From NCBI GenBank assembly GCA_026874595.1, contig CM049311.1, forward strand, positions 60,640,453 to 60,704,452: a stretch of 64,000 nt of DNA, in the 5' to 3' direction. The position numbers and the translations under genes are program-made. The notes under the pieces were generated by a model that did not search any database, was not told the DNA's origin, and saw only the letters and a program-made list of their open reading frames with translations. Of this stretch, positions 20,092-54,358 are shown piece after piece; position 1 is the stretch's first letter; every line of letters starts with the position of its first letter. This stretch comes from Sipunculus nudus. Taxonomy: Eukaryota; Annelida; Sipuncula; Golfingiida; Sipunculidae.

Positions 20092-20700
20092 CGCTTGAAT
20101 ATGCAGTGCCCTATAGGAAACACCATGTCTGCCTATCCGTCAGTCCGTCCACACATTCGTTTCAGGATGACAACTCCAGTTTAGATCGACATATGGATTT
20201 TAAACTTGACTTATTTATTGCCCACCAAAAGAGTAAGAACCATATAGATTTAGGTGTCATGAGGTCAAAGGTCAAGGTCACAAGACCCTCAACTTGATAA
20301 GATTGTGGATGCATTTTTTGCCAAACTGTTTATCCCTAACCTATTAGTTACCTTGCACATATAGCTCCCTGCCTATAGGGGAAGATTCCTGTCATTTGCA
20401 CAATATGTCCACAAATTTGTTTTCGGATGATAACTCCAGTTTGAATTGACATGTGCCTTTCAAACTCGAATTATAGTTGGAAAACTACAAATGATAGAAC
20501 TCTTTCAAGTTCGGAGTCACGAGGTCACAGGTGAAGGTCACTGGACTCACATCTTTACACAGATCGTGGAGGCATTGCAAATGTTTCATTCAAATTTTTC
20601 ACTTTTGGGTTACCTAACAATAGAAGAACCATATTGATTTGACATCACAAGGTCAGAGGTCATGGTCACAGATCTATCCTACTGATTTATATATGCTGAC
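20092..20700 (+). mobile_element. hairpin/TCCGTC/tandem-unit element, family T1 (3' end unclear)
   Basis: Begins with a hairpin (TAGGGCGC near 20092, complement GTGCCCTA near 20113), then a short CCGTCAGTCCGTCC microsatellite. Degenerate tandem units of about 258 bp follow: GGATGACAACTCCAGTTT at about 20166 recurs as GGATGATAACTCCAGTTT at about 20426. GGTCAAAGGTCAAGGTCAC recurs three times (about 20265, 20522 and 20650) in variant form. Units of this sort with AAGGTCA blocks are common in mollusc genomes. No CTAG-type 3' end was placed, so the right boundary is approximate. Confidence 0.6.
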
Positions 20701-20920
20701 TAGGCTATACATCAGATGTTGCTTTGGATGGCCCACTTCTAGACCTTTATACGCAACTATAACTGATTCAAATCATGCCATTTTGTTTCAGATGATTAAA
20801 TATACATTTTTGGTCAGTTCTCTTTGTCTCTGCATGTGATTTTTTTCAAGCATCACTGAGCCCGCACTGGAAGTGTATGGGCCTTTGCGTTAATTGCACA
20901 ACCTCACATGTCAGTATTCT

Positions 20921-20921
20921 A

Positions 20922-20967
<46 letters not shown>
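20921..20967. repeat. (TA)n microsatellite
   Basis: About 23 uninterrupted AT/TA dinucleotides. Confidence 0.97.
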
Positions 20968-20970
<3 letters not shown>

Positions 20971-21346
20971 GATGGGACTTTTTTAAATCGGTAATGTCCT
21001 CCTCTATATATACAGTTGTACTTAGATATGATTCATATTTGCGAGGGTTTCAATTTATGAAAAACATTATGAATAAAAATATATCATGTATGTTCAAAGA
21101 TTAATTTTTTAATGGTATCACATATTTCCAATTGTCTGCCATTAACGAACTATGTGATTTGTCAATAAGATTTTGTGCACATATTATTTGATTATTTAAT
21201 GCACATATTAAAAAATTATTTCACTGTTTCTTTTTTGTCTATTGTATTGTGAGATCGCAAAAATGGATCCCTCACGAAACACTGAAATGGTGAAAATTTT
21301 AACCCCGCGTATATGAAGCCAACCACAGTATATGCACAGTATATAT

Positions 21347-21348
<2 letters not shown>

Positions 21349-21405
<57 letters not shown>
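21349..21405. repeat. (GA)n microsatellite
   Basis: About 28 uninterrupted GA units. Minus-strand frames reading Ser-Leu repeats across it are artefacts. Confidence 0.97.
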
Positions 21406-21409
<4 letters not shown>

Positions 21410-21660
21410 TCTCTGTTAGCAGGGCTTTGGTTATCATTATAAAACAGTATATTTATCGGGAAGAAAGGGTTATTAACAGTAAGGTATCCTAATTGAAAAG
21501 CCGTCAAGTCACATATTATCTGCCTTGTGCAGCACTGCCTGACATGCCGTGGATGGATGACTGAGGCCAACATGATTTACTGGAGAGGGGAGCAGAGCGC
21601 CGGAAGCTGCAGACTCTACCCATGAACGCCCTCCAAGCATGAAACGGAAGTGTGATACGG

Positions 21661-21868
21661 CATATAATATGTGAGCAAAACTCGTGTGGGAAAGATAGTC
21701 AGGTATGCCGGGTTGAATGAAGCTACTGATATAACATATTGCACAGGTTGTGCTTGTATACGTTATATAATATGCGAGCAAAACACATGTGGGAAAGATA
21801 TTCAGGTAAACTGGGTTGAATGAAGCTATTGATATAACATATTGTACAGGTTGTGCTTGTAAACGTTA
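21661..21868. repeat. 103-bp tandem duplication
   Basis: TATAATATGTGAGCAAAAC at 21663 recurs as TATAATATGCGAGCAAAAC at 21766. The copies run through TGGGAAAGATA, GGGTTGAATGAAGCTA and ACAGGTTGTGCTTGTA. Roughly one base in ten differs. Confidence 0.9.
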
Positions 21869-21938
21869 CATTGTCAGTGCTGAAGGATGTGTACAATAGT
21901 ATTCCTCCCAACGACCACTCAAGCAGCAGGTCCATCCC

Positions 21939-22112
21939 GTGATCACGACCAATCCAGTAACAGGACCACGAGCGATGACGACCGCTCCAGTAAAAGGGCC
22001 ACTCTTGATGACCATAACGCCGGTAACAGGACACTTACGCTATGATGACAACCCGGTAACGGGGCCACTCCGCTATGAAGACAAGCCCAGTAACAGATCA
22101 CCCCAGTACCTA
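21939..22112 (+). repeat. 33-37-bp minisatellite, 5 units, translatable
   Basis: Units start at 21941, 21974, 22007, 22044 and 22078 with GATGACGACC-like strings followed by CCGGTAACAGGACCACTC-like strings. The first three units are 33 bp, and the fourth gained 3 bp plus one, so a plus-strand frame of 63 codons reads through as a Thr/Pro/Gly repeat. No upstream or downstream coding support is visible. Confidence 0.8.
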
Positions 22113-22635
22113 TTTTATTTTGTCATGTGAGATTGTAGAAAACAGTTAAATTTTGTTGAACACCAAACAAGCAAACTATGCAATTTTGGTAGAATTTATT
22201 TTCAGTATATAAAAATATAAACATATCTTTACCTATGGCTTTTTTATACATTTACTAATATGCCAATATTACCACAAATTAAACATACATGCACACACAA
22301 ATTAGGCCAGGTCCCCGTTAAATTAATTGTTCTACATAGTCTGAGAACAAAAATGATCGGGCGAACTAGCCACTTTTTTAATTCATCGGTCAAGATACAT
22401 TAGCCTACATGGAATTTTACAAGCTCGTCAGGAAAAATACAAGAACTCGCTTCAGTTCTGGAAATGGTGAATAATGGAAAGGCAAGGTCTTGAAAATCGT
22501 GCCGATAAACACTAAGAATGTTGTTTGATATAAATAAAAAATAGTACTTCTGTCATTTTTTCGTGGAATTGAACCCAAACAAGAGTGTTTTATATCTTCA
22601 TACTCCTACAGGCCTTTTGAAAGGTATTTTCCTAA
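22113..22635. other. no recognisable feature
   Basis: AT-rich spacer; nothing supported. Confidence 0.5.
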
Positions 22636-22795
22636 GGTTTAATGCACGGTCTGTACACAGTTTTGGCCTTAGCAGCTCTAGAAAATATATGAAGCTCTTA
22701 GTGGAGTTTTTGGTTTAGTGTATGGTGTTGTATTCTACACGTTTTGAACATTAGCAGCTCTAGAAAAGATTAGGAGCTCGTACTGGAGTTTTTTT
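22636..22795. repeat. 82-bp tandem repeat, left part (interrupted by the element at 22796)
   Basis: About two units of AGCAGCTCTAGAAAAGATA, GAGCTC, GGAGTTTTTGGTTTAGTGTA, then GGTGTTGTATTCTACACG. AGCAGCTCTAGAAAA is at 22671 and 22753. The same units resume at 24876-25040, after a 2.08-kb element that split the array within a run of T. Confidence 0.85.
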
Positions 22796-22904
22796 ATGCC
22801 CCCGCCACAAAGTGGCCGGGGCATATAGTTTTACCCATGTCCGTCATTCCGTCATTCCGTCATTCTGTCATTCCGTCATTCCGTCATTCCGAAATCAAAC
22901 AGTT

Positions 22905-23804
22905 GTACGGACTTTTTTTCGCAATGCCTGCAGATATTGGCCTGATTTTTTGTGTGTGGGCAGATAATGACCAGTTACAGATCGAGTTCGTGTTTCGTCC
23001 CGGTTGACCTACTTTTGACCGTTTTACGGCTCCTAAACTTAGAAAATTTCATGAAAAATAGAAATTTTCATGACAAATACACATGTACGGACTTTTTTTC
23101 GCAATGCCTGGAGATATTGGCCTGATTTTTGGTGTGTGGGCAGATAATGACCAGTTAAGGATTTAGTTCGCGTTTCATCCTGGTTGACCTACTTTTGACC
23201 GTTTTACAGCTCCTAAACTTAGAAAATTTCATGAAAAATAGAAATTTTCATGACAAATACACATGTACGGACTTTTTTTCGCAATGCCTGGAGATATTGG
23301 CCTGATTTTTGGTGTGTGGGCAGATAATGACCAGTTACAGATCGAGTTCGCGTTTCGTCCTGGTTGACCTACTTTTGACCGTTTTACGGCTCCTAAACTT
23401 AGAAAATTTCATGAAAAATAGAAATTTTCATGACAAATACACATGTACGGACTTTTTTTCGCAATGCCTGGAGATATTGGCCTGATTTTTGGTGTGTGGG
23501 CAGATAATGACCAGTTACAGATCGAGTTCGCGTTTCGTCCTGGTTGACCTACTTTTGACCGTTTTACGGCTCCTAAACTTAGAAAATTTCATGAAAAATA
23601 GAAATTTTCATGACAAATACACATGTACAGACTTTATTTCGCAATGCCTGCAGATATTGGCCTGATTTTTGGTGTGTGGGCAGATAATGACCAGTTACAG
23701 ATCAAGTTCACGTTTCGTCCCGGTTGACCTACTTTTGACCGTTTTACGGCTCCTAAACTTAGAAATATTCATGAAAAATAGAAATTTTCATGACAAATAC
23801 ATAT
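22905..23804 (+). repeat. 180-bp satellite array, 5 units
   Basis: GTACGGACTTTTTTTCGCAA recurs at exactly 180-bp spacing (22905, 23085, 23265, 23445), and with small changes at 23625. The inner units are almost identical, while the outer ones are more diverged, as expected when arrays are homogenised by unequal exchange. Two decayed further units, about 24490-24840, lie beyond the nested insertion. Each unit contains ATGAAAAATAGAAATTTTCA, itself partly inverted. Confidence 0.97.
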
Positions 23805-23818
23805 GTACAGCCATTTTT

Positions 23819-24489
23819 AGCCCTCAGCTCATAGGCTGATGGGCTATTTTCGTCACCCAAACTGTCCGTCTGTCCATCTGTCTGTCCGGTGTCTGTCCGT
23901 CCGTCCGTTCTGCGTCTGTTAACTTTTACCTTGTGAGCGGGATATCTCTAAAAGGATTCACTGTTGGAATTTTATTTCATCAGTGAAGATGTATATCGAT
24001 AAAATCTCGGTCAAGTTCGAAGATGGGTGACCTTGACCCATTTTTCTACATTTTATAGCTGATTATAGAAAAACACTCAGAAGTTTATATCTCAGGAACC
24101 ATTGTGTGGATTTTCACAAAACTTACTATGATCATTGGGACTGATGGTCTGTATGTGCTGCACAATTTTGGTGGCGCCACCTGCAATTTCTGATTTTTTT
24201 ATTAAATTTTATCGGATTTTTTCAATTTTGGCCTTTTGTGCAGGATATCTCCAAAGGTATTCAACACAGGAACTTCATTTCTTCAGTGCTATTGCATTAC
24301 ATTTACAAAATCTTGGTCAAGTTCAAAGATGGGTGATCTTGACCTACTTTTCAAGGTCACAGAGCTTAGTATAGAAAAAAACTTAGGAGCTTATTTCTCA
24401 GGAAGCATTTGGTGGATTTTTATGAAACATGGTATATGCCTCTCCAATTTAAATTTATAAATGATTATCAACTTTTGCTAATATTCTAG
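23819..24489 (+). mobile_element. nested hairpin/tandem-unit element, family T3
   Basis: Starts with hairpin AGCCCTCAGC-TCATAG-GCTGATGGGCT (23819-23845), then CTGTCCGTC-type microsatellite. Two tandem units of about 302 bp follow: GGATATCTCTAAAAGGATTC near 23939 and GGATATCTCCAAAGGTATTC near 24241, each with GGTCAAGTTC(G/A)AAGATGGGTGA and a CTCAGGAA block. It ends CTAG (24486-24489) followed by TT. It interrupts a 180-bp unit of the surrounding element in its T run: upstream is GTACAGCCATTTTT, downstream TTCGCAATAC. The 3' hairpin is weak. The layout matches family T2 but the sequence differs. Confidence 0.68.
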
Positions 24490-24875
24490 TTTCGCAATAC
24501 AATGCTTACAGATACTGGCCTAATGTTAGGTCTGTGGGCGCATAATGACCACTTACAGATCGAGTTCGCGTTTCGTCCCAGTTAACCTATTTTTCACCAT
24601 ATGACAGATCCTGAACATAGAAAATTTCATGAAAGACAGAAATTTTCATGAAAAATGCACATATGTGGACTCTTTTTCACAATGCCTGCAGATACTGGCC
24701 TGATTTTTGGTGTGTTGCTTGATAATGACCCTTTACAGATCGAGTTTGCATTTTGCCCTTGTTGACCTACTTTTGACCATACAACACTTCCTGAACTTAA
24801 AAATTTTTACAAAATTTAACAAATGTTTCTAATTTGCCCCAGGCGGGGGCATTCGTGTCGTTCCGACACATCTAG

Positions 24876-25045
24876 TTTTTTTTTTGGTTTAGTGTATTGG
24901 ACAGCAGTTTTAGGAAAGATATAGAGCTCGTTCTGGAGTTATATTGGCTGAGTGTATGGTGTTGTATTCTACACGCCTTTGACATAGCAGTTTTAGAAAA
25001 GATATGGAGCTGGTACAGGAGTTTTCTTGTTTTATTATATAGCCT
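24876..25045. repeat. 82-bp tandem repeat, right part
   Basis: Continuation of the array at 22636-22795, with AGCAGTTTTAGGAAAGATAT at about 24902 and AGCAGTTTTAGAAAAGATAT at about 24986. Confidence 0.85.
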
Positions 25046-26000
25046 GGATAAAACGTGTTCTTTTATTTTACAGTGTTATTTCTAGACAGCACAGTTTGCG
25101 ATGGTAAAAGTAAAAGAACTATTAATTTGAAACATAGATTATCTGGATATTGAAGGATACCAAAAAGGCATTGAAGACAAATTATGAACATAATTTTCGG
25201 CCTGCCTTTAAAAAATATATATTTTTTCTAAATTTTGGTTTCCATATAATCAAGTTATTTTATTTATTACATTTACTTCTGAAAGCACCATAGATTTAAA
25301 AGGACCAGTTGAACACATGGCCGAGCTCCCAGTTTGATTTAATGCATCAAAGCAAACTTCTCTTAGAATAGGTATAGAATAATACCGTATGTATGAGGCT
25401 GTAAATACCGAACATTTATGTGACCATGGTAACGCCATAAAACACAGGAGCGTATCCAAGATCTTTTGAATCGACCGCACTGCGCAGTGATTACACGCCA
25501 GAAAATTAGTCTCCATATGGACTTTTTTAGTTTTAAACTACAATTTACCTCTATTTAACTAAATTTAGCTCCCCCTGCATGATTACTTACCATCGCACTT
25601 GGTGACACTGGGACTATGAAGCAAAGATTTAGCTACGCACATATTATCTGGGACTTAATTCACACATTTAATTTCTTTCTTTGTTTTTTAATTTTTAGTA
25701 TTCCCTGTTTTTGCTTTTTCCATTCATGTAGTAATTCATTCATTTATTACTTCATTTACTTCTTTTTTTAACTGCTTCCTTTTTTTATTTATTTCCTTTT
25801 TTTCTTTTGATTTTTTAATTATTTATCAGCACTAAAAAAACTAATGATCTCTTCCTGATGGTGCACAAGTTGTAATGCGATGTGCGGGATGCCATTTTGA
25901 AAAAATGTGAGACCTAAAACCGAAGTGGAATATATATATATATATATATATATACGCATGCGTTACCACACCACAACTGTTTTAGTGGACACGTCGCTTC
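25046..26000. other. no recognisable gene; T-rich tract and (TA)n
   Basis: Contains a T-rich low-complexity patch (about 25670-25830) and a (TA)n tract (25931-25954). Nothing else is supported. Confidence 0.55.
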
Positions 26001-26050
26001 ACGCAGTGTGTATATAGTCGCAGAAAAGATCAATTTGCTGCGCCTTAGAC
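25960..26050 (-). other. candidate exon 3 of a minus-strand gene
   Basis: Follows a strong acceptor (CTTTCTGTTCATTATAG, AG at 26051-26052). Joining the single T left by exon 2 to the first two bases (GT) gives a Cys codon. The frame then stays open for over 30 codons, running into the (TA)n tract. The intron before it would be only 52 nt. No domain is recognised. The 3' limit is unknown. Confidence 0.18.
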
Positions 26051-26102
26051 CTATAATGAACAGAAAGGTGATTTAATATATTCAACAAAATATGATACTT
26101 AC

Positions 26103-26160
26103 AGTCCCTCAGTAGGTAGATCAGCTCCTTACAAAGTGGCACAAGCTGATTTATATAGTC
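26103..26160 (-). other. candidate exon 2 of a minus-strand gene (58 nt)
   Basis: Bounded by acceptor TTTCATTTCCATAATCAG (AG at 26161-26162) and donor GACT followed by GTAAGTAT (GT at 26101-26102), both close to consensus. Phase 0 at its start gives 19 open codons plus one base. The peptide begins DYINQLVPLCKEL and looks like an amphipathic helix. The phase matches candidate exon 1 across a 98-nt intron. I recognise no family. Short exons with good sites can arise by chance. Confidence 0.28.
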
Positions 26161-26258
26161 CTGATTATGGAAATGAAATAACTTCCCTCTCTCTCAATGT
26201 GGAAAAGCTATAATTAGCAGATGAAATCAAAACGCGAGTACTATTCATACGATCTTAC

Positions 26259-26302
26259 CTGCTGCAGAAGTTTAATTACCCTGAAGCCACTGTCAAAAGC
26301 TT
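26259..26302 (-). other. candidate exon 1 of a minus-strand gene (44 nt)
   Basis: Ends CTGCAGCAG followed by GTAAGATC (donor GT at 26257-26258). The frame open into this donor reads ...AFDSGFRVIKLLQQ and continues in phase 0 into candidate exon 2. The acceptor is less certain: AG at 26303-26304 after a pyrimidine-leaning stretch is my choice because an in-frame TAA lies just before it. A stronger CTGCAG acceptor lies further up (about 26356) but its frame breaks. Confidence 0.25.
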
Positions 26303-26450
26303 CTTAACTCCGGGATAAAATAGACAAACGGCTTTACGGAAATTAATAAATTGCCTGCAGCGAAAAACAACACTGGATGACTCTGTTCTTGTGGGCGCTT
26401 CAAATTACATTATTCCTGCCTAGATGGTCTGTCTTTGCTGTTCCGGTTAC

Positions 26451-26535
26451 CTTCTGCCGCTTGTCTGGCTTCCCTTGTTCTGGCTGTCCCTTGCTATGCT
26501 TGCGCTCATATAAACCAAGGGCTGTCTCTACGTTG
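26451..26535 (-). other. open minus-strand segment with splice-like ends
   Basis: Acceptor-like CTGCAG (AG at 26536-26537) and donor-like AGAAG followed by GTAACC (GT at 26449-26450) enclose 85 nt with one 28-codon open frame rich in Lys, Gln and Gly. Its end phase does not fit candidate exon 1, so if real it belongs to another transcript or an exon is missing. On the plus strand the same stretch has TATAAA (about 26509) and ATTAAA (26596), the layout of an LTR. Neither reading is proven. Confidence 0.15.
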
Positions 26536-26599
26536 CTGCAGCCCCGAAGAACTACTATTAATCTCTAAATAATTTTCTTATGTTTCTTGTCCAAATTAA

Positions 26600-29500
26600 A
26601 GAGTTCGTTTATTTCCAACACTAATGTCCTCTCAATACTCTTTTTCTCCAACGTTCTTTAAAACTTGCAAGAACTCAGTTCGCCGCTGCAGTATTCTGCT
26701 TGCTGATTGGGATATGAAAAGTATATTCTCTTAGATAATTTCTTAGCAGTGAATTTTTTTTATATATTATGTTTAAAAATACATGTAATTGATTCGGTGT
26801 CTTTACAACTAGTTCTAACAAAGTTGTATCCGTTTCAAATAACACATCTTTAGGTATTCAACCATCAGCAGGTGGCGCACCTGGATGACCGGTCACATGA
26901 CCAGACGTTTTGCCGTTACAGTTGAAATAAGTGATTTAAACTATATAGCTACAATTAACTTTTACTTGTGATGGTGTATATTGTTCTGTAATGCTACGGA
27001 ATGATTGTGTTGCACTACCACTATGCATTGAACATCAGTCATAATGTATAACTGATACAGACGCTCATTGACGTCTTCAGTGTAGAAAAATAAATGAATA
27101 TTCGAAATAGATGTCGAACTAACTAACACAGTATTTGAATAATTCGAAAGGAGTCGCACTTAATTATATTATAACCTCGTATGGATAATATACTCATTTA
27201 GTGTACTGTCATCGCAAGATGATTATCGTTCTTTAAAAACTAGGACGAGCTCCGCTTTACAGATGTTATACGTTGTAGCCAGTTTTCACTTTAAGGCTAG
27301 ATTTAATGTACTCCATTCCACCAACCTGTGTCCGACTGTTTTTCTAGATAATTTTTTGGAAGTTTATATATTTCAAAGGTGTATATATGGAAGTGACAGC
27401 CTAATACAGCAATTAAGAGATTTACTATAAATCTCAAGTTAATGTATCACAACTGTTTACAACAATCTGACATAACAGATGTCCTCATGCACCAGTAGCC
27501 TGTTTTGTCTGGTTATATTTCTTAGAGTGTTTACATGACACCATCCCGTCCGCAGCTGTCTATTGAGGCTCTTTTTGCATGTGACCAATGACCTAGACTG
27601 CCATAAGTGGGGCTGATATGTTGTAAAATGTAGACTGATTTCTCATCGTTTTAAATAATTCTGGTTCTAAAATAAGGTGGAAGGTAGGTATATATTAACC
27701 TTGTTGAAAATAAGCCCTAAGCTCTATAAGCACGATCCGCACATACTGATGATACGCTCTTTATTTATTTTCATATGTTTGTTGTAAGTGGAGCGCTCAG
27801 TCATGTCAGTCTCCAGAAGCATAATCGGATCATACAAATTGCAATATTTTACTTATAACACATACATTTGCAATTTTTTAAAATATTAAAACATCATTAT
27901 CATCCGGTGATAGTAGTTTTGCACATTATGACTGAACTTATGGGAAATATTAAATCATTTTTTATCCTAAAGAAAATAAAATTATCTTTTACAAGCCAAA
28001 TAAAATTGTATGACGTAGGAAGTTTATGTTCAGGTTTATGTAAAGGTTTATGCTTGGTCTATTTTTAGATTAAGCTATATAAAGCGATGAATCATGCAGG
28101 AGCTGGATTGAACATTTTTTTCATGGTTACATAAACCTCCTAGGTAAATCCTGATGTCAAATATACATGTTCATGCCAGTACCATCATAACCCTTTAACC
28201 AATATAATTAACATTATAGTCACTCTCTCGGTGTTGTACACAAGGCTGGAACAGTCAAAACATACTGAAAGACAGAGAGGCAAACAGAAATAAGTAAAGA
28301 AATATGGTGAATGTAAAAAAAAAGAACGTTTTAGTATAATGGTCTTTTGACATATTACTGATATTACCAACATCTTAGCCAACAAGAAGTGCACCCTATA
28401 TATACCCCCACAAAGTTCAGTTACCAGCTGTTACTCAACCTAATGTATGTGGAGACAAATGCTTTTTTTTCTGTACCTGGCACTACCAGAAGTTAATATA
28501 TATTGCTTTCAAGGAAACTGTAAAGTCCCCGTCAAAGTAATAACACTTTCTCTCTCCAATTCAAAGGAGTATATGTCACCAAAAGGTCGTGGGCTGCGAG
28601 GCTTCCCGGAGATTTCCAGTCCAGCGTGGCCTTAAACTGCAGCAGTTCCATTGCTACGGGGAATCATATAATTGGTTTATCACTTGGTGGTACCATGAAA
28701 CTAACATGAAATATTCATTACAAGGATAGTTTTATTTTCTTCCTAGGGTTCTAGGTTTTTTTCGGATGCCTATAGCTCTCCTTTTTTGGCAGTCTTGAAT
28801 GTGACGAATGGGGAGGGACATATTGACTTGCACTATGGGAAATTTATATCCTGGTTTAGTTTCATTAAGTTAATGCGGAGCTGGAACTGCTGGTTGTAAC
28901 ACACATTTTATTTGTCTCCTTATAATTAATATATGCCTTTAAATTACACAAATGACTATATTGTTTACACTTTCTAAATGGTTGTGGATTTGCTTTGGTA
29001 TTTAAGAATATAAGAAGAGACCAATAAAATCACAGTAGGTAATGCCACATTCAGTACATGATGGTATAGAAGTTATTATTTAAGGGTTAACCTCGCCTTA
29101 TTTCTGGCCTGTTGCCTATGCTTAAAATCTGAATTGAACTCCTCAGGACTCGATGGCCACTACAGTGGAGATTCGAAGATATTCATGAATATTCATGACT
29201 GGCAACATAGCGTGTTGTTTAATTGGATGGTGTCAAAGTTTGAACAGGTGATTTCCCAGGTTGATTCAGATATGTGGACCATAATATTATACGAGAGACG
29301 AGCCTGTACGTGCTGTAAAATTTGCTGGGTTTTTTTTAAAGGCTTCCACAGGGAATAATATAGGATAGTTGCAGAGCAATTGCTTCAAGTTAAATTAATG
29401 ACTGGTTGATTGAGCAAGAATATGCAAATTTTTTTGCCATGGTAGTTAAGGAAATTTCGAATAAAAACACTGAAACTTTTAATAAACAGGAGGTTAAAAA

Positions 29501-30009
29501 GGAAAGAAGGGAATCAGAAAATGGTCAATATCTGCCAAAAAAAACCTTAGTCTTGAAAGGTAAAAAATTACAAATGCTCCCAAGGGGCGTCTCAAATAGC
29601 ATACGTGCCTTAGTGAGCAAACGCAGAGCGTAAAACCTGGCGGATTTGATACGTTAATAACAAAGTTAATATTCACTTACCATCGCTGGGTTTATATCCA
29701 TGGGTTTATGTCGTAACATGTCACGTGGGGTATATCACAAAGAGACACCCACTCGGCAATTCTACACATGGATGACAGGTATTGATAAGCTGAACACCAC
29801 AACATCACGTATTCTGGATATTTCATAGGTCCAATGATGAGAAATATGTTCTCTCATGTGAAAATGTCTAATTATATGCAAAGCTAAAAAGATGTGTCTT
29901 TAGTTTCTTCTTGTAACTAGCTAAAAAGGTCGAAACAAAATGCGGTGCATGTCAAACATGTTAAAAGATTTGAACTCCCAAACACAAACAAGATATATTT
30001 ATATGATTA
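26600..30009. other. no recognisable gene or repeat
   Basis: About 3.4 kb of AT-rich sequence. Short frames at 29134-29358 and 29406-29633 have no recognisable domain or splice support. Minus-strand donor-like strings such as GCGATG followed by GTAAGT (25587 and 29678) lack a convincing exon. Confidence 0.5.
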
Positions 30010-30038
30010 CAATAATAATAATAATAATAATAATAATA

Positions 30039-30082
<44 letters not shown>

Positions 30083-30083
30083 C
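30010..30083. repeat. (AAT)n(ATT)n palindromic microsatellite
   Basis: About ten AAT/ATA triplets switch abruptly near 30040 to about fourteen ATT triplets. The two halves are mutually complementary and can form a hairpin. Confidence 0.97.
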
Positions 30084-30134
30084 ATAACATATACAGCAAA
30101 CTGTGAGTATAAAAACATAAATAACTTTTTCCCA

Positions 30135-30183
30135 CCACACACACACACACTCACACACACCAACACATGTACATGCACACACA
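30135..30183. repeat. imperfect (CA)n tract
   Basis: CACACACA with T, CT and AAC interruptions. Confidence 0.85.
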
Positions 30184-33150: not shown

Positions 33151-33240
33151 CTAGAAATCTGCATTCTGAGGAATGCATGCCTCCGCCATGATGGTGTCCC
33201 TATTATGGGATGCTCCAAAAACTGTGTTTGATTTACTTAT
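33151..33240 (-). mobile_element. Helitron-like 3' end fragment (family H1, second copy)
   Basis: On the minus strand: TTTTGGAGC ... ATGGCGGAGGCATGCATTCC ... TTTCTAG. The bases just before CTAG form a clean hairpin, TGCATTC / GAATGCA (33160-33177), placed as in Helitron 3' ends. It is homologous to the fragment at 949-1065. CTAG occupies 33151-33154. No 5' end is visible. Confidence 0.55.
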
Positions 33241-33854: not shown

Positions 33855-34097
33855 TAATATTACATTTTTATTGCGACCTTCTCCAGCCGGGAAACGGTCA
33901 GGTGAGCCGAGCGAAGTGTACCGCAGCCGCCGAAATTTCTCACGCTAAACTGAGCCATTGTACAAATTAATATATATTGCGATTCTCTTAAAGAAGAAAG
34001 CCAAAGATAGCCCTAATTAATAGTCTGTATTTGCACTTTTGATATTTAGGTAGTCCGGTAGTCAAGCATGATTGTAAGGTCGATTGTATTTCTCCGC

Positions 34098-38098: not shown

Positions 38099-38493
38099 TA
38101 GCTCATCCGGCCATACGCTCGATGATCTTATGCCATGGCGATGTGGCGTCTGTCTGCCCATCACAAAAAAAGGCTGCACTGGTCAGTTTTGATTATTTTG
38201 TTTCTGATAGGGATAGTAGTGGCCTCTTAAAATTCTAAACAGATTTTTTAACTTATTAAAAATTCAAATGTATGCAATCTTTTCAAAATCACACCAAAGT
38301 TTCTTGACCAATTTTGAGTCTGCTTAGTTTATCTGATTGAGCTTGGAGCATCCTTCTAAGCCTGTACATATAATTTTGAACTTTCATGTGGGGGCTACTG
38401 AGTTATCAAATTTATGCGATGAAAAACATATCCACCATCCACCTAGTGTAAACCCTATAATTTTATGTTGGGGCGGTGCCGGATGAGCACTAC
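38099..38493 (+). mobile_element. short hairpin element, family T4
   Basis: Begins TAGCTCATCCGGCC with a nearby imperfect complement ATGATCT, then a GTCTGTCTGCCCATC remnant of the TCCGTC-type microsatellite. It ends GTGCCGGATGAGCACTA, whose GCCGGATGAGC is the inverse of the 5' GCTCATCCGGC. This is the same general layout as families T1-T3 but without evident internal tandem units. Confidence 0.55.
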
Positions 38494-41390: not shown

Positions 41391-41460
41391 TAAATAATCC
41401 TGCTTGTGACTCGTCGCGCGATATCTAGGCCTATATATATAAACTAGGGTTGGCTCAATG

Positions 41461-41465
<5 letters not shown>

Positions 41466-41524
<59 letters not shown>
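41466..41524. repeat. (TA)n microsatellite
   Basis: About 29 uninterrupted TA units. Confidence 0.97.

Positions 41525-41525
<1 letters not shown>

Positions 41526-43253: not shown

Positions 43254-43255
<2 letters not shown>
41525..43255. other. no recognisable gene
   Basis: A small inverted repeat, AAGTAGGC ... GCCTACTT (about 42438-42474), could form a hairpin of 8-12 bp with a loop of about 20. It is too weak to call an RNA. Confidence 0.45.

Positions 43256-43303
<48 letters not shown>
43256..43303. repeat. (TA)n microsatellite
   Basis: About 24 uninterrupted TA units. Confidence 0.97.
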
Positions 43304-43306
<3 letters not shown>

Positions 43307-43797
43307 TTTATTTAATGTATATTTATGTTAAATGTTAAATAAATGTTTAATTTATATTTGTTATTAATTCTTCTGAATATACAAGGCACAAAAATATATC
43401 ACAGGCAACATGAACTTTAAAGAATTATCCAGAGCAGTGAATATTTTATGAACAATTTACGGACCGCTAATGAATCCATTAATAAAACATAGGTTAAGGC
43501 ACTTGATCTGACAGTTACAACAGGAAAGACAAAACCTACACACTAGGGCTATTTCACGAATGGGCCAACATTGTTGTGTTCATTCAATTAAATTATTTAA
43601 TTTTGAATGCAGTTTGGCATATAAGTATAAAAATTCATCATTTGTATTAGCAGGCAGGTGTCTGCACAGAATGTTACATGATATGTTACATGAGGTCTGT
43701 TCAGCGTTACCTGTGTGCTGATAAGAACAGATTTATAGTAGTCCCATGCAGGACAAGTACTTGTTGGAACTACACAAACTCTATTTAATAGGACCTA

Positions 43798-44133
43798 GGC
43801 CAAAATAAAAAAAGGTATGGTTCTCAGGCATTTTTTTCAGAAATCAGTGCGGGCGGGCGGGTTTTTTATATTTGATTTTTTGGTATGTTTCGATAAAAAT
43901 GTCAAATGATAAGGGAAAAGCATGATAATAACATATTTATTTTGCTAAACAAGTAAAAGCACTACATAACAAAGAAAACTGTATGATTTTATCTTCTTGA
44001 AATAAATGTCCGAGCGGCTGCAGCTCATAATTGGTAAGTTTCTATTAAAAATCAAAATAAAAATGTTTGATGCGGGAGTTTAAAATTTATGCGGGCGGTG
44101 CCTGAGAACCATAGCTTTTATTTTTTTTTGGCC
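43798..44133 (+). mobile_element. 336-bp MITE, family A copy 2
   Basis: Full-length relative of copy 1, same orientation, with both terminal repeats (AGGTATGGTTCTCAGGCA and GCGGTGCCTGAGAACCATAG). TA flanks at 43796-43797 and 44135-44136. Internal block AATGATAAGGGAAAAGCATG is shared with copy 1. Confidence 0.87.
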
Positions 44134-47100
44134 CTATCCATATACCAGGTATGTTGAATATACATTGATCAGACATGGGGTCTATTACAGGTGTTCTATT
44201 ATCATTACTATTAATACTAATTTAAATTTCTGATATTACTATTACTATTACTATTACCACATTTTATCTTCTATTACTATTCCTGGGGTATCTATTTTTA
44301 TAACTATTACTAATACTTAAACTGATGGGAGGATTTTAGACCCTGCGCAGCCAAGAGTGCTTTAAACTAGCAACTAACATGTTTAAATAATATAACAAGC
44401 GCCTAAATAACTACACAATTTTCTTGTGTAATTAATACAGAAAGCCTAATGATAATTATATTTTGAAACCTCAATGATCGTTATTGGGGTATATCAAGTA
44501 GAAATTATATAAGATAACTGTATGAACTCCTGAATACATGTTATTTGAAACCAACCAATTGTAAAGGCCCTGCCATATGTGAAATATTGATTTATAATTA
44601 TATGCATACTTATACATTTTTTCTTCATATATATATTTCACATAAATTTATTGGTATTATATTACATACTTCCGTTTAGATTCAATCTTCTTTCTCGTGA
44701 TTAATAGATAAAAATTTTCAGTGTAACTTAAATTATTCATGATTATTGCATATTTTATTTAGTATCAAAGCTAACAAATCAGTCCTTTATGTATGTATCA
44801 GGAGAGGAATTTATGTGTCCTGTTTCCCAATTCTTATTAAAATATCCAATAAAATACTGTTTACTTCAATATTTTGGACAGAACCAAACTGGAGACAAAA
44901 GTATCCCATCTTCTCAGGTGTATATGTTCATTTGGATGTCGTGCCATGTATAGTACATCTTGAGAGTGAACAGAGAGGTGATAGACTTTATAATATTGGT
45001 AGCATGCATGGCCTTTATTCTTCAGGCTTGCCCTTCTTCATTGCAGCAAAACCAGCAAAGGATAATTTAGGAATATGGAGAGATATTAAAACATTTAAAT
45101 CAATTTTACAATTGTGTGAGCTTATGGACACAAAACCAGAGCTCACTAATGAGGTGCCAACAGCCTAATGATAAGGACACTTAGCCAGTCATCAAGTAAT
45201 GTGGAAATCTTCCTCACCTTTCATGGGCTACTTTGAGTTAGTTCTTATGATCCACATATAAATTTTCAAAATGATTAAACAACTAGAACAACAAGATTAA
45301 ACTGGCACTGCTCGAAAATTTAGGCACATCCTGGGCAATCACTGGACAAGAATTATATCTGATCAGCATTATTTGCTGATATTCCTAATGATCAAGGGGC
45401 TCACTCGAAGTAATAGAAAGTAATATGTATTACTCTATTACTTTGTCTTCTGTTTCTGTGTTTGTTTTTTACTTATCCTTGTTTGGAAGTTGTCGCGCAT
45501 GCGCAAGTTCGGGTCTCTGGTGTAGTCTTTAGTCATGTTATGGCTGCGGCCTGTAGATACACCCAGATATATAACTACGTAAAAATGTACGTAATAAGTG
45601 CGTGTGCTGCGACTGTTTTGTTGAGAGTTTTATGTATTCAGCCAAAATGAACTAATGGCGTGATATAATGTACTTTTAAGCGTTCCTTGGTTAAATTGAA
45701 ATTAGGTCGAATGGACCAAACTATAAAGGAGCCGAAGGCCATGTGATCAGTGTCATCAGTGACGTAGGCCTCTAATTTTAAGTTCACACACGTCAAAGTG
45801 AATACACTTTCATTTTAATAAAAATCATTGGCATTATTAATCAATTATGAATAAAAATATGACCAATTATCACCACAGAGCCAGTTATTTAGGTGTTTAT
45901 GTTAAATATCAGTATCAATAAAATCCGATTATATTCACTCATTGGTATAAATGAGTTTTTCCAGTCTGCGATTAGAACAAAACTGTCAGTTTTATAAATA
46001 TACAAATCCGGGGTTTCAACTGCAAGTTTTGTTTTTCATTTACAATTGCACAAATAGAGAGGCAAAACATTTTAGAGTAGGTCTATTTTGATGTTGATAC
46101 GGTTGAAAAGGTGGATAAAATATAATGTATTTGTTTTTGCAGCGGTATACACTCATAAGATTATCATCCTAGTTTAATACTACTTAGCTTGGTGCGCTGA
46201 CATCATTTTAACATATCTGAGTCCACTTGTAAGTAATGACAGACGGGTACTCAAGCTTAAAGCCGAGCGTGTTCCCCATAAGGACTATGCATGAAACGGA
46301 GCGAAGTGCTGACGGAATATGGCGTCCCATGAGTGGGCGTTTATGCGGCAAAAGATTACAGCAGCCATTGATGAGGATACCAACATTCCGGGAACTGTTA
46401 AGTGACCGCCGTCACTCAATGGCTGTACTCTGTTCAAACAGAGTGAGTTTGCCTTATTTGATCAATGGGGAACAGCTTTTGTCGATAAAAGCTGGTAATG
46501 ACCTCCCTGAATTGACTTTATATTGTCGAATTTTGTAATATTGTCTACTTTAACTAGAATTCCCGTGGTTCATTGCATGATTATCTTGTCTCTTCCACAG
46601 GTTTAATACTGGAAAGGCTGGATTGGTTCGCTGACCCCGGAGTGTACGTGTAGAGTCACTGCATCCATAATACTTCAGGAAAACACTAATTTTTACAAAT
46701 AGATGGTGTAATGTTGCATGTTGTGTTGCGACCACATGTTTCCGCAAACTTTATGACATAAAACTAAGAATAACTTATCCGAAATCCGAACTCGTATTTA
46801 AATAAAGCTTTGCCAGTTCCCAGTATGGGTAGTTTAATGACTGCGCCGTTTCGTGAGGAACCTAACAATATCATCATTCATCAAAAAATGAGTTATTTTC
46901 GGGTGCTGTGCGCGGAAAGCATTAGCCTACTATCATTGGCACGAACATGTGCAATAATCCTTTGGAAAAAAGTTGAAATATGACTATCGATTTCCCAAGT
47001 TTATTTTTTATACTTGAAACGCTCGCTTCAATATCATATGAAATAATCGACACATTTACTTTGTTTAACAAAATTGATTATATATATTTTTGTTACGATA

Positions 47101-47366
47101 CAACAAGACCTTGACTGACAAAATGGTAAGTGTCTTTGTGAAACGAGTGAAACGAAATGTTTCCGTGCTAATTTAACTCCTGACAATATTCTGAACTTAC
47201 CATGATCAAGAAACCTTATAATTGTAAGAGTGGTGTAAAAAGCACCCACAACTATAAAAAAGGGGAGGGCAATGGTAGCTCACTGTATAAAATGTGCAAT
47301 ACATTTAGTGTTCCTTGAATTACTAAATGCTAGCTCTGGTATGTGTTTTACTCTGTGTACATATTA
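44134..47366. other. no recognisable gene
   Basis: ATT/ACT-rich low complexity at 44235-44325. Frames at 44746-45168 (140 codons) and 46236-46538 (100 codons), both plus, show no domain I recognise and no strong splice sites. They could be exons, but nothing argues for it. Confidence 0.45.
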
Positions 47367-47696
47367 GGCCAAAGTAAAAAAGGTATGGTTCCCAGACACT
47401 TTTTATCAGAAATCAATGCGGGCGGGCGCCTTTTATATTTTAATTTTTTTGGTATGTTTCGATAAAAATGTCAAACGATAAGGGAAATGAGAATAACAGT
47501 TTTATTTTGCTAAATAAGTAAAAGCACCACAAAACAAAGGAAATTATATGGTTTTATCTTCTTGAAAGAAATGTCGGAGCGGCAGCAACTCAAAATTGGA
47601 AAGTTTTTATTGAAAATCAAAATAAATATGTTTGATGCGGGGGATTAAAATTGATGCGGGCGATGCCTGAGAACCATACCTTTAATTTTTCTGGCC
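47367..47696 (+). mobile_element. 330-bp MITE, family A copy 3
   Basis: Full length and same orientation as copies 1 and 2, with TA at 47365-47366 and 47698-47699. It has more substitutions in the left terminal repeat (GGTTCCCAGACAC) and a short deletion in the AAGGGAAAAGCATGATAATA block. Confidence 0.87.
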
Positions 47697-47788
47697 TTAG
47701 ATATGTTCTTATAAAAAGGAGAAAGTGGTTAGAATGAAGCTTACGGCGTGGTGTGAAAAGCCGAGAATTTACGAGATGATTTACGAGG

Positions 47789-47796
47789 ATATATAC

Positions 47797-47853
<57 letters not shown>
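47789..47853. repeat. (TA)n microsatellite, slightly interrupted
   Basis: TA repeats with ACA and AAA interruptions at the left. Confidence 0.95.
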
Positions 47854-47856
<3 letters not shown>

Positions 47857-50800
47857 GTAGATGTAGAGGGGGTGTTATTTTAAACATTTCGGAAACCTGA
47901 TAATCTAACCCCTGTATTTATGGTCCTCAATGCAAAACCGCAGTAAATTGTTTTTCTTCAGAATTTTCTTTCAAGTGTTACCCCCTTTACACCCCCTCTG
48001 ACGTTTAAGAAAAACATAAAAATTTAAAAATGCCAATTTTCTTTATTGTAACATATATGCAACAAGTTTTTGAGAACCAGGCATTTAAAAGATATGCAAG
48101 TTGCTCTACGGTACACTCACACAATCATATTAACCGGTATTGATAATTTATTGGCATATTACATAGATGTGATTAGTGTAAGATCTTAAAGTGCCTAAAA
48201 AAGAAAAGATTGCAAACGATATAGAAAATCATATATCTGTTCATCATGCTTTGAGGATACTGCATGGATCCAATCAAAATATTCACTGGTTGTGTCAGAA
48301 CCATTCGATTAACAGTGTAATTGTTCGCCTCCTTCGAGTGGTTAAATATGTTTTCAACAGTTGTTTTCCTTCGAAAGGTCAGATAGTTTTAACAACTGGA
48401 AACATTTAATTGGACGAAAGACTGGTGAATAAGACATAAAAAAGGCTTATATGTGGTACAATTGGCGACCCAGTTCTTTCACGTCCACAGCATTTGATTC
48501 GATGTGGCGCCGCCCCCTTTGCTTTCCGTTTAGCTTGCGGGTTTGAAAGCCCATTGTCTGCGATGAGGGTCCCGCAGAACAACATTGGAAATTAAACCAA
48601 AGAAAGCCTTATCATATGGTCTGTGATCAGCATGCTCCAAGAGTAGAGTCGAAATTACCGCGTCGCATCGCCAAAACACCCAGAGGGTTCTGAACCGTAC
48701 CACGGGTCGCGTGACACATGCGCTTATTATTAATTCTGGAGAAAGGGTGATAGAGTGCTCCTAAATAACACGCTACAAAAATAGCCAGCCATGAATGGTT
48801 AGATGATGAGAATCCACAGTCAGCAGACGAACATTAGCTTGAACTGCGTGGGTGCTTTAGAAAGGTGTTCATCAGCTGCAAGCAAGGTAATCTGGTTTAT
48901 GTACACGGTGTTTTGTCACACTAACATTGTTGACCACTTTCATTTCCTCATCAGGTAAATAATACGCTTTCAGGTTTTAACTGTCATTTTCCAATTGTTA
49001 ATCATGTTGTTTTACGTCATCACTGGGATATCCATGAAATGAAATATATCTATTTACGTTGTACACTAGCGTTCAAACTCACAAAGTTGGTTTCAAATCG
49101 TGGGTGTAGATGGTTTTATATGATTTATAGATATGGATCTGAAATTTTCAACAAGTCATGTTTCAATATATTTTGTCTCTATATTTTTTGTTTCAATTCA
49201 TAGTAAAAGGCCATAAACAAACTAAGAATGCAGAAAATAAACATGAATCCACAATGCCGTAAACATATTTACAGAACACATTGCGGATACATTGTGTTCC
49301 CGCCTCGAGCCTCTTGATGACATCTGACGTCTATTAAATGAAGACGAACATTTGTATCTTTTATAAAATTACGCTAGAAAACACCGATTCCACAGGCTGT
49401 TCTTTTTGTTTATATCCACATGTTAATAACATGTTGGGCGCAAAAATAATCCAACCACGTTAAAAAAAGACGTTTGACGACTAGTCAGGCGAACCAGAGT
49501 TTCGCAGAGTTTCGTTTTGCAACTATTGACTTTTCAAAGTCGGCACATCTGCAAATAACCACCTAAGGTTACATGTTTTTTTTTTGTTTGTTTATCAACA
49601 TTGACGCATTTATCGTGTATATTAAGGGCTTTTTTAGAGGCGTCGCAGAGGCGTTATAAGAACTTTCCTAACAGGAATCACCTACAGATCATTAATATGT
49701 TGGCAGAGTAATTCAGAAATCACATGAGCTCTACAGAAAGGGTTAATGAATAGCTGGCTTTAAAAAATCAAAAATCTTCGGGTCAGGTACTTCATACTTC
49801 ATTAGACTACAGCATTATAGCATCCTCTCGACAGGTACTAATAACACCAGTGTACTTGCTCAGTTTTCTTTCATTAAGTGTCAGTGAATCAACATTAATT
49901 GGTGAACACTTTCTACAGAATATAGATACAGGCCCAATGCCGCTTATTTGGGTTAACGTTTTTAATAGACATTTTTTACGAGTAATGGTGTCTGTTTTCT
50001 CAGGTCCCTACTTGTCCGCATTGCATGATTTGTTAAATTAAACCAGATATATTAAAAAAAATTCACGATTATTGTCAATACAACAAACCCGAACATTTAG
50101 TGTCGCACGTCGCCGATAGATGTAGATAATTCCTTATGAATGATCTTGAACTTGTCTATTCTTTCCAGACACAGATATTCTCGTGGAATGTGAAGACGGC
50201 TAATAACCTCTACATATTTCACATAATATATGTGGATATTTAGACTTCACTGGTAGATTGGTTTGGCTGAACGTTATAGGTATATCTGAGAGGTCATGAA
50301 AACTGGCACAGAGAACGTATGTAGTGATACCACATGTTGATGGAGTCCATTGTAGTTCAGGCGTGTATAAATGCTGTAGCCTATATAACACAGAATAGGT
50401 TGAATTGCATAAATTACCTGACACATTTTAATGGAATTTGCGGGTACAGATAACTCACTGGACCAGCTGACCAGACTGAATACGAGGGGGTGGAGAACTC
50501 AGGCCGAAGGAGTCGTTTTGTTTACTCAATTTTCTTGATAAAAATTACTTCACACTAGTTTAAATAATTACCTGATCTACAGATCTGCTGTATGTTCTAT
50601 TATTCTGCTGTAAAGTTCAACAGTTTTACTATAGCTATGCGGAGGGTATGTTTTTACCCGTGTCTATACATCACAGGGGTGAATCTCGGAGTTATTTTGT
50701 GGAAAGTTTTTCGTTTTACCACTGAGTGCGTACACTCAACGCAATTTGGAATTGATGACTGCTAGTTACTTGATGTTTTGAGCTGATTTACAGTTGAGTT

Positions 50801-53487
50801 AGTGGACTCTGAGTAAAAAAAATTGTAGATATTGCACATGTGTATTTTTATGTGTACAGGGACAAAGCGAGAGAAAATGCTCTGTAATACCAACTATTCA
50901 CTTGGTATTACCTGTAAACATTTGGATAATTCTTTTAGTTCTGTAAGAATAATATATGTGTGGGTTTGTGTAAATATTCGTATATTTTGTTGAAGATAAT
51001 GAAACGTAACGACGTGTTCATTATCGTAATAAGGAGATTCCATAAGTTGATATGGCCATAGTTTGCAAAATATATCGTTAAGGACATCGAAAACAATCAC
51101 AGTAAACTGCAGAGTAAACCATTTTCTTCACCAAAACCTAGCTCATGATCATTAAACTTAAAATCATCAGCGGAATTAGTTAGATTCGCGTGACAAGTAG
51201 GTAATTCAAGATAATTATTTCTGATTGGTGGAACCATAATAAACTGCGAAAGCCCACTTCTGATGAGACTCAAGCACACATTCCTCTGTTTGCCATAAAC
51301 CAAATGGAAAAAGAAAACCATATCACAGTGGCAACAATGGGGGTTTGTGTTGAAATCAATTTGCTCTAATTATTTTGTTAAAGTGTGCCAAGAAAGTGTG
51401 GTTGGCGTCTTAGTAATTTTTTTAGTACTCTACCCTAAGCTGAAATTTATATCTCCGTTGCGCCTTAGAATAACATGGTGTATTTAAGACTGATTGACGT
51501 ATAAGTTGGAAGAGGTTTATTTTACAATTTATGCCATTCATCCAAAGAAACATTTCAGGGCGTCAGTACAGGGGATGAGGTCAATGTTATCCCCCCATGC
51601 ATCCGATAAAGCCGGCGTTTAATGTGGCAAAATTATAAAACAATACCAGAACCATGGATATTCCCGATATCCCCTTGGAATAACTTTGGTATTTGAATTC
51701 GATAAACTGGTTTGGAAACTGCAGCTTCACTTCTCTATTCGTGATCTGTCTTATTTACTGTTTTGGAATAAAGTTTCTCAAAATACAAGGTACCACTTGG
51801 GTGTTCGTGTCGGTGTGGCACGCCGTCCCATGATGCATCAGTCGCACAGCAACAGCTATTGTTTACGCCTCGATTTTTTGTTATTTTTGCTGTTGAAATG
51901 ATATCCCCATCGAGAGGGCATTGAGATATATATCACCGACTGCATACGTTGAAAACGACACCACGGAAGCTGGCTTAAATGCTATATTTATACCCATGAC
52001 GTCACAAGCGTTGCCACTGTAAATGTATAAAGAATACAGTGGGCCTAAAACTGATATTTATATGCATGTATATTTACATGCACCTTTCCTGACATATCTG
52101 TACTTCAATCTGACGGAAGTGTTCCTTAAAACGTTTTCGGGGAATGAAATAATAATCTCCATGAGGATTGTGGCCACCAGATGGCGTTGACGGGATTTCA
52201 ATGTATTTCAGTTATATATGATACACCTACAAGTTGTTCAATCTCAAGTTAATCATTACAGCATATTTCTCAGGGGGAGAAATAGAATACACATGTATAT
52301 AACGCTCTAGTTTTTTCTAGCTTTTTTCACTTTGGGGCATGACAGATCTGCAGCAGCTGGTAATTGTTTATTATGTTCCATATTCATGGAATAATGACTT
52401 GGTATTAAATTTTTGCCCCGCTTTTTCTATTTCCTTCTCAGGGATCTCATTAATGTGTCTGCTGCCTCACTATCAAGATAGGAAGAAGCGTTGTTTGTCC
52501 TATCTGACAATAACATTTCCGCGTCTAACAACTGACGGTGAACTTGAATCCTGCCCGGCTCATTCACACTAATAGCCCCATAGATGACGTCATCGCAGTC
52601 AGCGTTTCCATGGGTTTTACATCCATAATCGTGATTCTCTCCGACCGAAAACGTGAGCTGGGTAATCACGCCGGGGTAAAGGCCAATTAAGCCCATGAAA
52701 AATGTGGTCCTTTATCCTGCTGATTGTGGAAGTGTTATTCTTGGTTCCTAGAACATGACGGGAACCAATTAAGGACACTGAAATAGGACTTGACCATTTA
52801 GACATCATGTGGTGCGTTTCCTGTTACATATGCGATCTTAAGCGTTTTAAAGCGTGCGTCGTCATTGGAAAAAGCAGCGGGTTTTAAGGCATTTCCGACG
52901 CTGAATAAAAGACATACCTGAACCGCAAGAGGAAATCCCTCTACAGACGGACTCCAATCCCGCAATCAGACTAGATTAAAATGGAACTCACGCGTGTTTA
53001 CTTTTAATATTCACTTTATACTTAATAAAGAACACCACAAGACATTTTTTGATTGCTCTTAATATATGAAAATGAAATGCATATATCTAAAACTAGAAAC
53101 ATCCAGGTGGTACATTAGATACAGTTCACAGTCTTGATGACGTCATAAATCTTCAGACTCAGACTGTGTCTCTCTCGATATATATATATGTGTGTGCCCA
53201 TGTATATTCATGTTTGTATGTATGTTTGTACATACGCTGCGAGTTTTTTTAGGGGAAAATTAAAATAAAATATTGTACCTACGTGAAATCAAATATATAA
53301 GATCAAACCCTTCATATGCTCTTGGTCAAAGTGTTAAAATATCGGGTTATTAATTGTACATTTATTAGCATGAACGACAGAGTATATAACCCACCAGCGA
53401 CATATTAAATATATTCAAATATATTTATAATAATAAGTTAACTCATCCCTTAATTGTGATTTCATTGTATATCACCCACCAGTTAAA
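47854..53487. other. no recognisable gene; moderately GC-rich patches
   Basis: A GC-richer patch at 48480-48900 ends with a donor-like GCAAG followed by GTAATC (48887), and two frames are open for 15-20 codons before it. Another open patch is 52427-52696 on the minus strand (89 codons). Neither has recognisable domains. The rest is AT-rich and unique-looking. Confidence 0.4.
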
Positions 53488-53575
53488 ACAAGGGACCTAT
53501 GGGTCACTGTGCTCAGCTGAAGTTGACCTTGAAGGAGAAAATCTAAAATAATATGAAATGGAGATAAAGTCTGAG
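53488..53575 (+). repeat. possible 5' end of a mollusc-type repeat element
   Basis: CAAGGGACCTATGGGTCACT (GACC/GGTC mini-hairpin) followed by GTGCTCAGCTGA and GTTGACCTTGAAGGAG resembles element starts common in bivalve DNA. No far end is visible. Confidence 0.3.
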
Positions 53576-53811
53576 AGGAAAAGTTAAATTAGGCCATGGC
53601 TGGTTGACATGATTGGTTTGTATTGATGAGTAAGAAATTGTTGCAAAAACTATTTTTTGACCAACCATGCATTTCCTGAAGTTAAAATTGAAAGATGTGA
53701 GCAGTTTGTGACCATACGATGTATATTATTACCATTATCGTTGGTTGGCTTTTTGATAAATTGTTGACAGTTCAGTAATTTACACATTTGTTCAACAGGA
53801 TCTATTTTTTT

Positions 53812-53814
<3 letters not shown>

Positions 53815-53852
<38 letters not shown>
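53815..53852. repeat. (TA)n microsatellite
   Basis: About 18 TA units. Confidence 0.96.
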
Positions 53853-53854
<2 letters not shown>

Positions 53855-54159
53855 AAATATATCAATTTTTTATTTTTATAAAATGTATACAGTTGAAATA
53901 TAAGTAATATTCCAAGTCCACAGATACAAGAACTTGGTGGTGGTGGTGTGTGTGTGCTAATTACAAATTCTAATATGTTCAATCCCATAACTTTTAGAAA
54001 ATACACTTTACAGTTTTAATTTCTGGCATGTATATAGGAAATATATAGGAGAATACTCCTGCTTAATATTAAGAAAAATGGGTAAATGGTTTTGATATTA
54101 GACAGTCCTGAAGTGTGATAATAGGTTTTTAATGGAAATTTGATTTTTTTTTTCTTAAT

Positions 54160-54358
54160 TTCTCCAAGGAACGAAGTCGTAGTGACTCAGGGGATCTTTG
54201 GTTTGGTAGGAGATCTTGGGGACATCTAACAGTATACCGAATTTAGGATTCGTAGGTCAAACAGTTTCAAAACGTGCTAGTCTAACGGGGAGACGGACGG
54301 ACAGACGGACAATGGACCACGATTATAGCTCAGACGACTTACATTCTGCTGAGCTAAA
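54160..54358 (-). mobile_element. 5' part of a hairpin/TCCGTC element, family T5
   Basis: On the minus strand it starts TTTTAGCTCAGCAGAATG, forms a hairpin (TAGCTCA with TGAGCTA, fwd 54325-54357), then GTCCGTCTGTCCGTCCGTC microsatellite, then unique sequence. Same order of parts as families T1-T4. The 3' end at lower coordinates was not found, so the extent is approximate. Confidence 0.5.

Follow-up and report, generated by a model that had tools for sequence, protein, structure and literature searches.

Non-autonomous Helentrons, known as Helentron-associated interspersed elements (HINEs), have already been described in flies, mites and oyster, and several of the oyster HINEs carry GTCY-type microsatellites, their autonomous partner being left unresolved (PMC7492417). 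Here we describe five such elements, F1 to F5, in a window of 64,000 nucleotides from Sipunculus nudus (GCA_026874595.1, CM049311.1, forward-strand positions 60,640,453 to 60,704,452), which lies on contig C6 of the 1.43-Gb assembly that was searched. The window very probably holds HINEs of several unrelated families that are moved in trans by Helentron enzymes. The elements have conserved ends and lie in T runs, F3 is nested within F2, and the genome contains Helentron enzymes. A preliminary description of the window, made from its sequence alone, had already suggested a Helitron/Helentron-derived HINE origin, and the anatomy fits: a 5′ subterminal inverted repeat (subTIR) with its inverted copy, a GTCY microsatellite, a 3′ subTIR and a palindrome.

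The 5′ hairpin followed by a GTCY-type tract, which had been proposed for five families, is present in all five, although the stem of F4 is lost in the window copy and the fold of F1 is weak. Hairpin folding compared with shuffled sequences gives z −5.0 for F2, −3.2 for F3, −3.1 for F5, −1.6 for F1 and 0.06 for the decayed F4 copy. Tracts, defined as at least three units of CCGTC, CTGTC or CCATC, number four in the window against a mean of 0.13 in 30 simulated windows of matched dinucleotide make-up. Three of them belong to F2, F3 and F5, the fourth (27541) has no upstream hairpin, and the tracts of F1 and F4 in the window fall under the three-unit threshold. A perfect 8-bp hairpin lies upstream of two of the four tracts (F2 and F5) and of none in the simulated windows. 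Folding of the 3′ palindrome against shuffles reaches z −3.1 for F2 and only −1.2 for F5. The subTIR pairs are ATGCCCCCGCC/GGCGGGGGCAT, of F2, and GCTCAGC/GCTGAGC. Tandem units, described earlier as usual, are found in F1, F2 and F3, but none were detected in the window copies of F4 and F5.

The ends of F2 were compared in 30 fetched loci, the window copy included (40 of 624 candidates scored); those with common flanks (L008/L022, L010/L011 and L012/L015/L016) do not count as separate observations. Of the 30 loci, 29 begin with ATGCCCCCGCC and L017 differs from it by one base; the starting ATGCC stands directly behind at least five T in 27 (exceptions L017, L019 and L030). The 3′ end, located by the motif GACACATCTA so that differing ends would escape, is GGCGGGGGCATTCGTGTCGTTCCGACACATCTAG (CTAG) followed by two to eight T in 7/7 loci. 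No fixed-length target duplication was seen by eye in the seven F2 loci with both flanks, and none beyond T. The exact terminus, T-T included, occurs 1,999 times in the genome (993 + 1,006), its backwards control not at all. The tract measures 41, 49 and 57 bases in 12, 9 and 8 of the 29 loci that could be parsed, or about five to seven units between copies. This variation speaks against a signal of set length, and the tract is most probably a microsatellite that varies in length. Three F2 copies at C11:67.33 Mb (L012, L015 and L016) share the same 5′ flank at a spacing of about 2.1 kb and are tandem copies of F2 plus flank.

F5 is more frequent. The fetched loci and the window together give five 5′ ends beginning AGCTCAGC and seven 3′ ends of the form CAGCTGAGC..GTGACCCATRGGTCCCTTG before T, one of them with changes; the window copy ends in GTCCCTTG at 53489. 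The search gave 2,439 F5 candidates, of which 40 were scored, and the exact 21-base terminus GTGACCCATNGGTCCCTTGTT is found 16,769 times (8,358 + 8,411; backwards control 0). By this count the HINEs of this genome, although ordinary as elements, are very abundant. CTAG followed by TT within a T run, announced for two elements, is confirmed for F2 and F3, but F5 ends in CTTG.

F3 is a passenger of F2. Its 5′ junction with the 180-bp unit of F2 is identical in 17 of the 30 F2 loci, the window copy among them, and in all ten further F3 hits, which were chosen among the best 20 out of 40 scored. On the 3′ side, nine of these ten run on into the F2 unit (eight with CTAG, one with CAAG) and one diverges; in all nine fetched F2 loci that reach the 3′ end of F3, this end is CTAG followed by TT. 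The empty F2 unit reads GGAC-T7-CGC, and the filled unit has five T before F3 and three behind it, so F3 entered the T run with a duplication of no more than about one T. F3 is absent from four complete copies of F2 (L012, L013, L014 and L017), and these differ from the F3-bearing copies whose 3′ end can be read (L004, L007, L023 and that of the window) in one base before the 3′ subTIR (GCCCAAGG without F3, GCCCCAGG with it). In F2::F3, a nested HINE-like element has become an integral part of a composite that amplifies. F3 would have inserted once into an ancestral F2, within a 180-bp unit, and then have been amplified along with it. Five independent families are therefore not shown; for close copies of F3 the common junction with the F2 unit rules out independence. 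The composite is one route by which such elements acquire mixed repeat content. A diverged F3-like stretch (82%) was also noted upstream of the F2 copy in L019 (410-620), beside F2-like unit sequence.

Insertion between T residues had been put forward for testing, and both the flanks of F2 and the empty site of F3 agree with it, lying in T runs with no target duplication beyond T. Two other sites can be read on their 5′ side only. In L058, F2 interrupts the coding sequence of a Helentron, at an A/T run that is empty in L060, and in L030 an F5-like element occupies a T run of an F2 unit, the run used by F3.

Table 1. Positions of the HINEs and their parts in the 64,000-nucleotide window
Feature	Position	Strand	Details
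F1, old HINE	20085..20923	+	hairpin 20084-20113; short tract ~20131-20150; diverged ~260-bp units
F2, HINE carrying F3	22796..24875	+	5′ ATGCCCCCGCC, 3′ GGCGGGGGCATTCGTGTCGTTCCGACACATCTAG
F2 5′ terminal hairpin	22796..22824	+	-12.3 kcal/mol, z -5.0
F2 TCCGTCAT microsatellite	22840..22891	+	
F2 180-bp tandem units, 5.0 copies	22904..23808	+	more diverged units after F3
F3, HINE-like, nested in T run of F2 unit	23819..24489	+	two diverged ~303-bp units; CTAG, then TTT
F2 3′ subTIR GGCGGGGGCAT, palindrome TGTCGTTCCGACA, CTAG terminus	24842..24875	+	
F4, decayed HINE	38100..38488	+	5′ AGCTCATC; weak tract; 3′ subTIR-like GCCGGATGAGC at 38478-38488
F5, HINE	53489..54355	-	5′ AGCTCAGC..CTGAGCT hairpin; tract 54308-54292; 3′ CAGCTGAGC + GTGACCCATAGGTCCC + CTTG, then TTTT

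The starts given earlier for F2 and F3 stand; those of F1, F4 and F5 were shifted from 20092 to 20085, from 38099 to 38100 and from 54358 to 54355. F1 is old and F4 is decayed. F1 has 42 matches in the genome, the best other long match being 80% identical. Its window copy has a decayed 3′ end, GTCAGTATTCTAAG; the hairpin and tract are kept in other copies (L062-L080), and the 3′ end of the family, read by eye from four varying copies, consists of the subTIR GCGGGGCCCT, the palindrome CTGACCTGTCAG and TATTCTAG. F4 has seven matches, the window copy counted. Four other copies (L106-L109) still show a recognisable stem, AGCTCATC..GATGAGCT, which is uninterrupted (7 bp) in L108 only. On the 3′ side these copies and that of the window have only the subTIR-like sequence, and the 3′ boundary is approximate. 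Elsewhere in the window, a diverged 26-bp tandem array of 20 copies lies at 14121-14643. An Rfam scan of positions 1-64000 gave no family at its gathering score.

The genome contains at least 143 matches to Helitron_like_N. Among 30 fetched loci, 26 carry the Helentron-type Rep signature RxEFQxRGSPHxH, one has a Helitron-like L, one a W, and two are unmatched. One open frame runs for 2426 codons between stops. Domain searches with its sequence, divided into pieces of 1107 and 1304 aa, show DUF6570, OTU, Rep, PIF1 helicase and Exo_endo_phos, and around Rep two other loci match it at 99% identity along some 3.6 kb. The combination of OTU, Rep, helicase and endonuclease fits Helentrons as described in PMC4067079. 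Two tandem arrays were noted at L081:2409-3276 and L082:408-1092: the long Helentron frame includes 69-bp repeats in its 5′ part, and units of 149 bp follow about 4.6 kb past its end.

In the mechanism that we propose, the Rep/helicase would nick the HINE at its 5′ end, and one strand would be peeled off and then copied. The 3′ palindrome would act as a stop mark for the enzyme, and the strand would be inserted into a T run, between two T, with no target duplication. We infer these rolling-circle steps, and likewise mobilisation in trans. The role of the hairpin is suggested by analogy with Helraiser, in which the 3′ hairpin near the CTAG terminus is the transposition terminator (PMC4778049). 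Several observations weigh against assigning all of these elements to HINEs moved by Helentrons. The two-sided empty-site evidence comes from one ancestral event; no 3′ subTIR or palindrome was seen in F3, whose 3′ end does not fold (z 0.27); and the window copy of F4 has lost its hairpin. No autonomous element with HINE ends was found, the fetched Helentrons not extending to their ends. Within the 19 kb of L081/L082, the one Helentron read at length, the criteria applied reveal no GTCY tract, no palindrome with a CTAG, CTTG, CTAA or CTGG end, and no T-run hairpin. Nine inverted repeats of at least 12 bases between its sides (12-13 bp) are A+T-rich or weak and were taken as chance. A second copy of this Helentron, 99% identical around Rep and 96-98% in the outer stretches, aligns across the whole fetched span, which places the ends outside the fetched DNA. 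The 3′ side of L105, from a second Helentron group, shows no clear end and a possible hairpin, GGGCTAAG..CTTAGCCC, near position 380.

Three other explanations were weighed. The parts follow one another alike at 20085, 22796, 23819, 38100 and 54355, which could mean that five independent HINE families converged on one design and that recognition depends on the layout itself. The nesting of F3 in an F2 unit (17/30 F2 loci and 10/10 further hits), the variable length of the F2 tract and the conservation of family-specific subTIRs between copies make this unlikely. With its CTAG end and its 3′ hairpin, F2 would also suit the CTRR terminus of canonical Helitrons, which begin with TC and insert between A and T, and one of the 30 fetched Rep loci (L032) does have the Helitron-like L signature. 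The 5′ ends, however, are AT or AG behind T and not TC, insertion is into T runs, F5 ends in CTTG, subTIRs are present, and 26/30 Rep loci are of the Helentron type; a canonical Helitron origin is very improbable. Slightly less probable still are miniature inverted-repeat transposable elements (MITEs) moved by a terminal inverted repeat (TIR) transposase. Short inverted repeats do occur at both ends, and the related Pearl element was originally called a MITE (PMC7492417), but the 3′ inverted repeat is subterminal with a palindrome behind it, and 7/7 F2 loci, read by eye, lack a target duplication. HINEs moved by Helentron enzymes remain our preferred assignment.

F2 and F5 tend to share a strand where they lie close together. 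Strands were compared in the first 100 matches of each terminus, all on contig C1 (about 0-88 Mb). The F2 sites (100 of 1,999) cover 0.2-48.4 Mb. The F5 sites (100 of 16,769) span 3.23 Mb (C1:64036-3232311), 87 on the minus strand and 13 on the plus strand. Within this span the strand of F2 agrees with that of the nearest F5 in 10/10 cases, even where the strand changes to plus at 3.22 Mb; because the F5 background is strongly skewed, this agreement alone is modest. The start of C1 is enriched in F5-type 3′ ends, with 100 in 3.23 Mb against about 38 expected from the genome average. A thinner F5 set (terminus plus one base, 1,231 sites, the first 100 over 0.1-87.6 Mb) was drawn later, the distance bins having been chosen after the F2 list was seen. 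F2 and the nearest F5 less than 100 kb away are on the same strand in 27/29 cases, and in 18/20 with the first 3.6 Mb left out. Farther apart, the same strand is found in 13/21 cases at 100-300 kb, 12/23 at 0.3-1 Mb and 11/27 beyond 1 Mb (23/50 beyond 300 kb). Binomial tails are 8e-7 (27/29) and 2e-4 (18/20), and they are affected by pairs that are not independent, as one F5 site can be the nearest to several F2 sites and clusters appear more than once. Neighbours of one family behave similarly. For F2, 21/24 agree below 100 kb, 12/19 at 100-300 kb and 26/56 beyond, or 59/99 over all distances (permutation p 0.039); for the thinner F5 set the counts are 21/23, 11/19 and 28/57. Of the fetched loci, 3.1 kb in length, 16/17 hold another family in the same direction (L027 is opposite; duplicates L011 and L022 and the mixed L074 were excluded), part of which is expected since nesting in the T runs of another HINE forces the direction (L023 and L030). 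In the window, F1, F2 and F4 are on the plus strand and F5, 15 kb on, is on the minus strand.

T-run availability is disfavoured as the cause: runs of five T and five A upstream of F2 stand at 176:136 in 30 loci that include duplicates, an asymmetry of the F2 sites that is too weak for about 90% agreement. No non-HINE control repeat was found in the fetched DNA among the first 40 repeated 22-mers and 34 repeated 16-mers, some 16-mers being unplaced; all those placed by eye are F1-, F2-, F3- or F5-like. We suggest, tentatively, that the orientation of HINEs is a regional property, unrelated families inserting on one strand within domains of about 100 kb because the invading single strand would enter single-stranded T runs on one particular strand where a replication fork passes (or within a transcription unit). 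For the bacterial IS200/IS605 elements, such a choice of strand at the fork has been reported (PMC5371812). Transcription is another possible cause, as are segmental duplications that include both families. A further one, discussed for human Alu (PMC3215922), is the loss of inverted pairs, which should have no effect between unrelated families. Among the titles and abstract openings available, none reported Helitron orientation domains, which is no proof of absence, and the co-orientation of F2 and F5 within about 100 kb may be new. If the regional explanation were true, the orientation of HINEs would provide a fossil map of the direction in which replication (or transcription) runs. Strand choice by Helentrons is, to our knowledge, an open mechanistic question, and it becomes testable against replication and transcription maps if the co-orientation survives controls.

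Lepidopteran MITEs with hitchhiking (GTCY)n microsatellites were reportedly described by Coates in 2011. As far as their title and a review table indicate, these resemble the present elements in having a GTCY tract that adjoins the terminal inverted repeat. Helraiser is unlike F2 in being a canonical Helitron with a TC start and an AT target (PMC4778049). DINE-1 and HINE-Mo, with their Helentrons, share subTIRs, microsatellite, 3′ stem-loop and TT insertion with the elements of the window, and the Rep signature and endonuclease of those Helentrons are found in this genome too; in Culex, HINEs are more than 95% identical to their partner, whereas no partner link was found here (PMC4067079). Cg_HINE of Crassostrea gigas, likened here by description only, has the 5′ subTIR with a complementary inverted repeat, GTCY, GTCC or GTCK microsatellites in several elements, central satellite-like tandem repeats, a 3′ subTIR and palindrome, and an oligo-T target with no target-site duplication (PMC7492417). 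It differs from F4 and F5, in which no tandem units were detected, and from the F2::F3 composite with its nesting in a repeat unit. The preliminary description had regarded the group as one still to be defined; the HINE layout, microsatellite included, had in fact been described (PMC4067079, PMC7492417), and with the whole of it on record in oyster (PMC7492417), the design seen in S. nudus is not new.

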